A stretch of DNA of 50,424 nucleotides from Bacteriovoracaceae bacterium (GTDB lineage Bacteria; Bdellovibrionota; Bacteriovoracia; Bacteriovoracales; Bacteriovoracaceae), in assembly GCA_029865945.1 (NCBI GenBank), contig JARXAH010000044.1, positions 1 through 50,424 on the forward strand. Reading direction: 5' to 3'. Below, in pieces: positions 17,273 to 18,177 of this stretch (position 1 is the first letter of the stretch; every line of letters begins with the position of its first letter). The translations under genes were made by a program, and so were the position numbers. The notes beneath the pieces were generated by a model. That model ran no database searches. It saw nothing but the letters and a program-made list of their open reading frames with translations, and was not told the DNA's origin.

Positions 17273-17388
17273 ATCATATTTCATTTATTTTTTTTATGTA
17301 AAACACAATAAAGGGATTTTTTTGCCTACATACCTCCTATCTGGAAAATGAGTTATCTTGTAATTCAGGGGTCCGACTATGACACGAA

Positions 17389-18177
17389 ATGCATTTTCTT
17401 TCTTTCTTTCTTTCTTTCTTTCTTTCTTTCTTTCTTTCTTTGAATTCTTACAGTCAAAGATTTTGTGATTCAATTAGAGTAGATACTCACTACTTGTTGA
17501 ATTTTTATGATGGGCGTACAGGTGAACATCAAATAGACGATTGCCAGGTATTGAAAGTTGAAAATGTAAATATAGAAATAGCTACTGGATGTTCGGTGAA
17601 AAAACTTAAGGTGTTTTGCATCGATTCAAAAACCACTGAGCCTTACCAGCATTTATCAGAATTAGCCATAGACCGCTACGTATATTGTGACAAAAAAGGA
17701 AAACAAGCATGGTCTCGAGACATACAAAAATTAGATTCCTTGTTCAAGAATTGTGGCGATATTAATGAAACCGCTAATTCATATTATCCATTTACAAAAG
17801 TAGATGAGTCAGAATACCAGTGCGATTTTGTTGGAAATCCGCTTTTTGTTAGTAGTGCAGAAAAATGTACTTCTGGGGAAATACCAAAATTTTGCCGTGC
17901 TGCCATTTCCTGCGTCGGAACGGGAAATATAGTGATAGAACATCCTAAGATAGATGAAAATGGATCTCCAATTATTAAATTAGATGATGTTGGAAATTAT
18001 AAATATCAAGAGGTACATTGTTTAGAAAAAGACTGCATTAATCCGTTGCTTTGTCTTCGAAGATCGGCGAAAGAAATTGATTTACATTATAATGCTTCAT
18101 ACTATGGAAATAGTGAATATAATGAGATGCGAAGTAAAAATAAAATAAAAGTACTGGAACCTTCGGTGAAAAAATAA
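17389..18177 (+). CDS. Secreted Cys-rich protein behind a phase-variable TTTC signal peptide
   Basis: 262 aa from ATG 17389. The signal peptide is encoded by 11 TTTC repeats that translate as repeating F-L-S-F; cleavage is likely after SYS. The mature protein has about a dozen cysteines (CDSIRVD, IDDCQV, ATGCSV, VFCID, YVYCDKK, LFKNCGD, YQCDF), suggesting disulfides outside the cytoplasm. ATG 17379 has the better ribosome site (AGGGG, 7 nt spacing) but at this tract length its frame stops after 29 codons. Loss of one repeat or gain of two would put it in frame and give a proper basic signal-peptide start (MTRNAF). So this copy may be captured in an OFF or low state. Function unknown; next gene starts 11 nt later. 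Confidence 0.75.
   Translation: MHFLSFFLSFFLSFFLSLNSYSQRFCDSIRVDTHYLLNFYDGRTGEHQIDDCQVLKVENVNIEIATGCSVKKLKVFCIDSKTTEPYQHLSELAIDRYVYCDKKGKQAWSRDIQKLDSLFKNCGDINETANSYYPFTKVDESEYQCDFVGNPLFVSSAEKCTSGEIPKFCRAAISCVGTGNIVIEHPKIDENGSPIIKLDDVGNYKYQEVHCLEKDCINPLLCLRRSAKEIDLHYNASYYGNSEYNEMRSKNKIKVLEPSVKK
17395..17441 (+). repeat. Tetranucleotide tract (TTTC)11 inside the signal-peptide codons
   Basis: Eleven perfect TTTC units (17395-17438) plus TTT. Because 4 is not a multiple of 3, gain or loss of a unit shifts the frame between the ATGs at 17379 and 17389 and the body of the gene. Changes of three units only alter hydrophobic length by four residues. Confidence 0.95.

Follow-up and report, generated by a model that had tools for sequence, protein, structure and literature searches.

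Most of what is understood about repeat-driven switching of gene expression comes from host-adapted pathogens. In Neisseria, the opa genes carry a CTCTT repeat in the coding region of the leader peptide, where the number of units sets the reading frame and thereby switches the gene on or off (PMC3960869, PMC5354566). The pilC gene of the same genus is switched on and off by frameshifts in a poly-G run located in the signal-peptide region (PMC5354566). In lic1A and lic2A of Haemophilus influenzae, a CAAT tract near the start is combined with several initiation codons in two frames, which gives graded phases of expression (PMC4019658, citing Dixon et al. 2007). The tetranucleotide tracts of H. 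influenzae are mostly found at or just past the start codon, and the rate at which they gain or lose units is about 1e-4 per generation (PMC2651432).

The locus described here lies in a 50,424-nucleotide stretch of the genome of a Bacteriovoracaceae bacterium (the window). A long TTTC tract is situated in the predicted signal-peptide region of a cysteine-rich protein and, as in lic1A and lic2A, start codons precede the repeat in more than one frame, since ATGs with predicted ribosome sites of unequal strength occur upstream of the tract in all three frames. It is considered somewhat more likely than not that the tract is a simple-sequence contingency locus and a candidate graded switch operated by slippage. 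The features of the locus are as follows.

17348 to 17443, plus strand: frame of ATG 17348, the third frame; 31 codons long at 11 units and continuous with the gene body when there are 12 or 15; ribosome site weak.
17367 to 17371, plus strand: Shine-Dalgarno-like AGGGG, 7 nt before ATG 17379; predicted pairing -6.5 kcal/mol.
17379 to 17468, plus strand: frame of ATG 17379; a hydrophobic peptide of 29 codons at 11 units, continuous with the gene body when there are 10 or 13.
17389 to 18177, plus strand: orphan ORF of 262 aa, predicted to encode a secreted protein that contains 13 cysteines; read in frame from ATG 17389 when 11 units are present.
17389 to 17454, plus strand: predicted signal peptide MHFLSFFLSFFLSFFLSLNSYS (inspection and hydropathy); cleavage likely before Q (S-Y-S motif, by eye).
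17395 to 17441, plus strand: perfect tandem tract (TTTC)11.75, codons 3-18 of the ORF, giving F-F-L-S repeats in all three frames.
18189 to 18494, plus strand: orphan ORF of 101 aa with a hydrophobic N-terminus, beginning 11 nt past the stop of the 262-aa ORF.

The likeness to opa consists in a frame-shifting repeat within the leader-peptide region of an exported protein, export being predicted in the present case. However, the opa repeat is a pentamer, opa forms an outer-membrane multigene family and its switching has been proven, whereas here a tetramer is found in an unrelated orphan with competing ATGs; no homology to Opa or to any other outer-membrane barrel was detected in Pfam, NCBIfam, PHROG or PDB. 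With lic1A and lic2A the locus shares a tetranucleotide tract near the start together with starts in more than one frame, but those genes encode cytoplasmic lipooligosaccharide enzymes, their repeat lies outside any signal peptide and variation among isolates has been shown, in contrast to the repeat reported here, which lies in a predicted signal peptide. In pilC a slippage tract is placed inside the signal-peptide coding region, as is predicted here, although it is a homopolymer in the gene of a known pilus-associated protein and not TTTC in an orphan. The TTTC locus is thus a candidate for the union of the opa and lic1A designs, both halves of which are already known. The initial annotation had called a repeat in the signal peptide combined with two competing start codons unusual, and this judgement has to be softened, since opa (repeat in the leader) and lic1A (several starts in two frames) precede it. 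No report joining "Bacteriovorax" and "phase variation" was found in the literature searched, and to judge from that literature the switch, if real, would be without an earlier described contingency locus in the Bacteriovoracaceae-like group. As a clean candidate from a lineage that is related to predators and probably free-living, the locus would let one ask whether secreted proteins of such bacteria diversify likewise, and it is short enough for quick amplicon sequencing of unit variation.

The tract is composed of eleven TTTC units followed by TTT (47 bp, 100% perfect), and it is the longest period-4 run in the 57% of the genome that was read. Over 1.04 Mb of genomic sequence there are 233 period-4 runs of 10 bp, 69 of 11 bp, 17 of 12 bp, 3 of 13 bp, 1 of 14 bp and 3 of 15 bp, with single runs of 19, 25 and 47 bp, the last being the TTTC tract; in a further 0.71 Mb no period-4 run longer than 14 bp was present. 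Its sequence and its exceptional length are direct observations, and the length is not due to chance. As in contingency loci, a perfect tandem array extends well beyond the length expected for the genome, and its 4-bp unit, placed at the 5' end of a gene, alters the reading frame with every unit. Because four equals three plus one, a tetranucleotide repeat spells one cyclic tetrapeptide in all frames; for TTTC this tetrapeptide is F-F-L-S, hydrophobic and stop-free, and the hydrophobic core is therefore kept whichever start serves.

The ORF at 17389-18177 is probably a real gene. Its body stays open for 244 codons, whereas none of 20,000 first-order Markov shuffles exceeded 162. At 0.082 per codon, its codon score is lower than that of core genes (minimum 0.143) and similar to that of the neighbouring orphan ORFs. 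Searches of the genome_contigs collection, of viral contigs, plasmids and phages, and of 59 relatives and 129 genomes from the order gave no homologue of the 262-aa protein, and the protein has no match in Pfam, NCBIfam, PHROG or PDB; the single-sequence AlphaFold model (mean pLDDT 34) was unusable. By eye and hydropathy, the N-terminus presents the repeat-coded hydrophobic F-F-L-S core and then the S-Y-S cleavage-like motif, the 11-unit form being devoid of Lys and Arg. In-frame TTG and GTG codons are present past the tract, and translation could start at one of them (e.g. TTG 17494 or 17497), which would turn the tract into a 5' untranslated microsatellite. No such candidate, however, has an obvious ribosome site, and this start would strip the signal peptide from a 13-cysteine protein, leaving the signal-peptide-like N-terminus as a coincidence, so it is regarded as extremely unlikely.

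The 101-aa ORF (18189-18494) is probably co-transcribed with the 262-aa ORF. Just upstream of the locus lies an rlmI-like gene, closest to those of Bacteriovoracaceae UBA6153 (45%) and Bacteriovorax STB_52 (42%), which points to a Bacteriovoracaceae-like host; in both of these genomes other genes sit downstream of it. The stretch of orphan ORFs around the locus is mostly of 32-35% G+C. Positions 17155-21400 form an AT-rich region with small orphan ORFs, several with signal-peptide-like N-termini, flanked by well-conserved genes.

The upstream ATGs differ in their predicted ribosome sites. ATG 17379, situated 10 nt upstream of the ORF start 17389 and in a different frame, shows a predicted pairing to the 16S tail of -6.5 kcal/mol versus a median of -5.0 kcal/mol for 33 genes of the window; with 11 units its frame gives MTRNAFSFFLSFFLSFFLSFFEFLQSKIL, closed after 29 codons by the stop at 17466-17468. 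For ATG 17389 the sole good pairing is the AGGGG site used by 17379, at too long a spacing. ATG 17348 is preceded by GGAAA, its predicted Shine-Dalgarno pairing is very weak (-0.9 kcal/mol), the predicted RNA fold has the GGA mostly base-paired, and at 11 units the frame is stopped by a TGA that arises where the tract ends. The frames themselves, as well as this ranking by predicted pairing, are results of the analysis. Unit numbers altered in silico bring 17379 into frame at 10 and 13 units, 17389 at 11 and 14, and 17348 at 12 and 15. The signal peptide carries Arg at 10 or 13 units (MTRNAFSFFL...) and neither Lys nor Arg at 11 units (MHFLSFFL...), and the 12-unit form begins with an n-region of 14 residues, among them two Asp and one Lys.

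The observation made in the initial annotation is upheld by these results, and its interpretation in part: the 11-copy tract is indeed located (17395-17441) between two ATGs of different frames and the gene body, ATG 17379 has the better site (AGGGG, 7-nt spacer, -6.5 kcal/mol) and 17389 lacks a well-spaced one, the translations agree that at 11 units 17379 ends after 29 codons while 17389 is in frame, and the simulated 10 and 13 units agree that the loss of one unit or the gain of two puts 17379 in frame. It was equally right that the repeat codes for the hydrophobic core (F-F-L-S in each frame) and that changes of three units tune this core, making it four residues longer or shorter. The claim that the gain of one unit leaves neither start in frame is true for 17379 and 17389, but ATG 17348, which is in frame at 12 units, had been overlooked.

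Passage from ATG 17379 into the gene body at 11 units requires a +1 shift, and UUU_C, which can promote +1 slippage (as in influenza PA-X), occurs at many sites of the tract. Ribosomes from the strong ATG might slip there and yield full-length protein even at 11 units, and such a slip would be silent because all frames spell F-F-L-S. Nevertheless, within the tract no slow codon or stop follows these sites and the expected efficiency of +1 slippage at them is about 1% or less; leaky decoding is thus a very unlikely explanation. RNA structure as a length-dependent switch was rejected, the predicted accessibility of all starts being identical from 9 to 14 units.

According to the preferred reading, that of a contingency switch, slipped-strand mispairing at replication would add or remove TTTC units at the 5' end of the gene of the secreted Cys-rich protein, and each one-unit change would couple the gene body to another upstream ATG. 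A ladder of expression is predicted from the ranking of the starts and the N-terminal residues at each unit number. It would be strong at 10 or 13 units, when the well-sited ATG 17379 would give high expression and an Arg-bearing signal peptide; weak at 11 (the sequenced state) or 14 units, when ATG 17389 would give low expression and a signal peptide without Lys or Arg; and near-off at 12 or 15 units, when only the weak ATG 17348 with its 14-residue acidic extension would be in frame and the gene would be effectively off. The core would be built in any frame, and three-unit changes would alter it by four residues. It is from this anatomy that we infer switching, and with it slippage in vivo, the levels of expression, secretion and any benefit.

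In the whole genome only three loci have at least 3.5 TTTC units, namely the (TTTC)11.75 tract, a second signal peptide and an F-L-S-F-F segment in a cytochrome oxidase subunit. Besides the tract under study, two more frame-shifting tracts, (TTTC)6.25 and (TTTACTTG)4, are located in signal-peptide cores of the same genome, and a search of 126 genomes from the order gave no convincing relative for the proteins that contain them.

C83:95318-95342 (L008 1499-1523): (TTTC)6.25, signal-peptide core of a small Cys-containing orphan, MKKFFFVSVFLSFFLSLANA|EVPC.
C9:15863-15894 (L048): (TTTACTTG)4, an 8-bp frame-shifting unit, signal-peptide core, MQKSYLLIFTCLLVYLFTCARLHAQ; the ORF runs off the contig end.

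A rival explanation is that the microsatellite has grown neutrally, T-rich Phe/Leu/Ser cores of this AT-rich genome seeding TTTC and slippage enlarging the run in a dispensable, lineage-specific gene; the unit number may well vary in that case, without selection for a switch. All three TTTC loci code for hydrophobic F-L-S segments, the 262-aa gene is an orphan, and relatives also have TTTC tracts outside clear genes. Signal-peptide cores consist of 51.5% T. When signal-peptide codons are shuffled, each set yields about 2.5 long T runs; period-4 runs of 17 bp or more, by contrast, turn up only 6 times in 2000 sets. T-rich cores can thus seed TTTC runs, yet shuffles rarely reach 17 bp or more, and therefore slippage must have enlarged them. 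Furthermore, an unselected gene with a frame-shifting tract should soon decay, yet the body remains open for 244 codons. Neutral growth is judged possible, though on the improbable side.

The idea that frame-shifting repeats are enriched in signal peptides had been formed on the first 1.04 Mb and was checked on the fresh 0.71 Mb; it was rejected, as that stretch gave just one coding case, a signal-peptide T13 run. This run, in a fourth signal peptide, is what codon composition leads one to expect, so only the period-4 and period-8 tracts exceed composition. The broader proposition that signal-peptide cores are a recurring site of frame-shifting repeats in orphan secreted proteins of the lineage, with the TTTC tract as a three-level secretion switch, is held to be unlikely.

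The contingency switch is favoured because the perfect, frame-shifting tract of 47 bp lies far outside the genome's own length distribution and directly after the starts, where H. influenzae usually has its tetranucleotide contingency tracts, because ATGs in three frames have graded ribosome sites, because the product looks exported (by prediction), exported products being the usual class for contingency loci, and because two further signal-peptide cores of the same genome contain frame-shifting tracts. An uninterrupted body of 244 codons behind an unstable 5' end suggests translation in some states. The same reading is weakened by the orphan status of the gene and its codon score (0.082, below the core-gene minimum of 0.143), by the ability of T-rich cores (51.5% T) to seed runs without selection, and by the layout of the ATGs, which may be fortuitous since AT-rich leaders contain many ATGs.

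In the phylum as a whole, 8 of 369 genomes have TTTC tracts of 6 or more units, and none of the other phylum tracts that were read forms a signal-peptide core in a clear gene; a 400-kb stretch of the relative G013 contained no repeat above the threshold. In G162, of the same phylum, two close TTTC runs of 15.5 and 20.5 units (C1, about 946812-946963; L203 1501-1652) lack a clear coding frame on the strand that reads TTTC. G040, also of this phylum, has TTTC tracts of about 8 units just upstream of ATGs (L208 1501-1531 and L217 1493-1524), both proteins having hydrophobic N-termini and the repeats being located in the leader, not in the signal peptide. The genome under study also contains heptamer AGTTAAA repeats, six copies in C29 (L176 15648-15689) and about four in C68 (L187 4466-4494), which are its only two loci with at least three copies and which end directly before an ATG or before a ribosome site and start codon; they are possible expression-tuning repeats. 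Finally, some predicted secreted proteins of the same genome have short repeats (8-mer, 6-mer, 4-mer and A13) 3-71 nt upstream of their starts (L236 18083-18112, L243 4530-4558, L040 6493-6511, L174 16133-16145).
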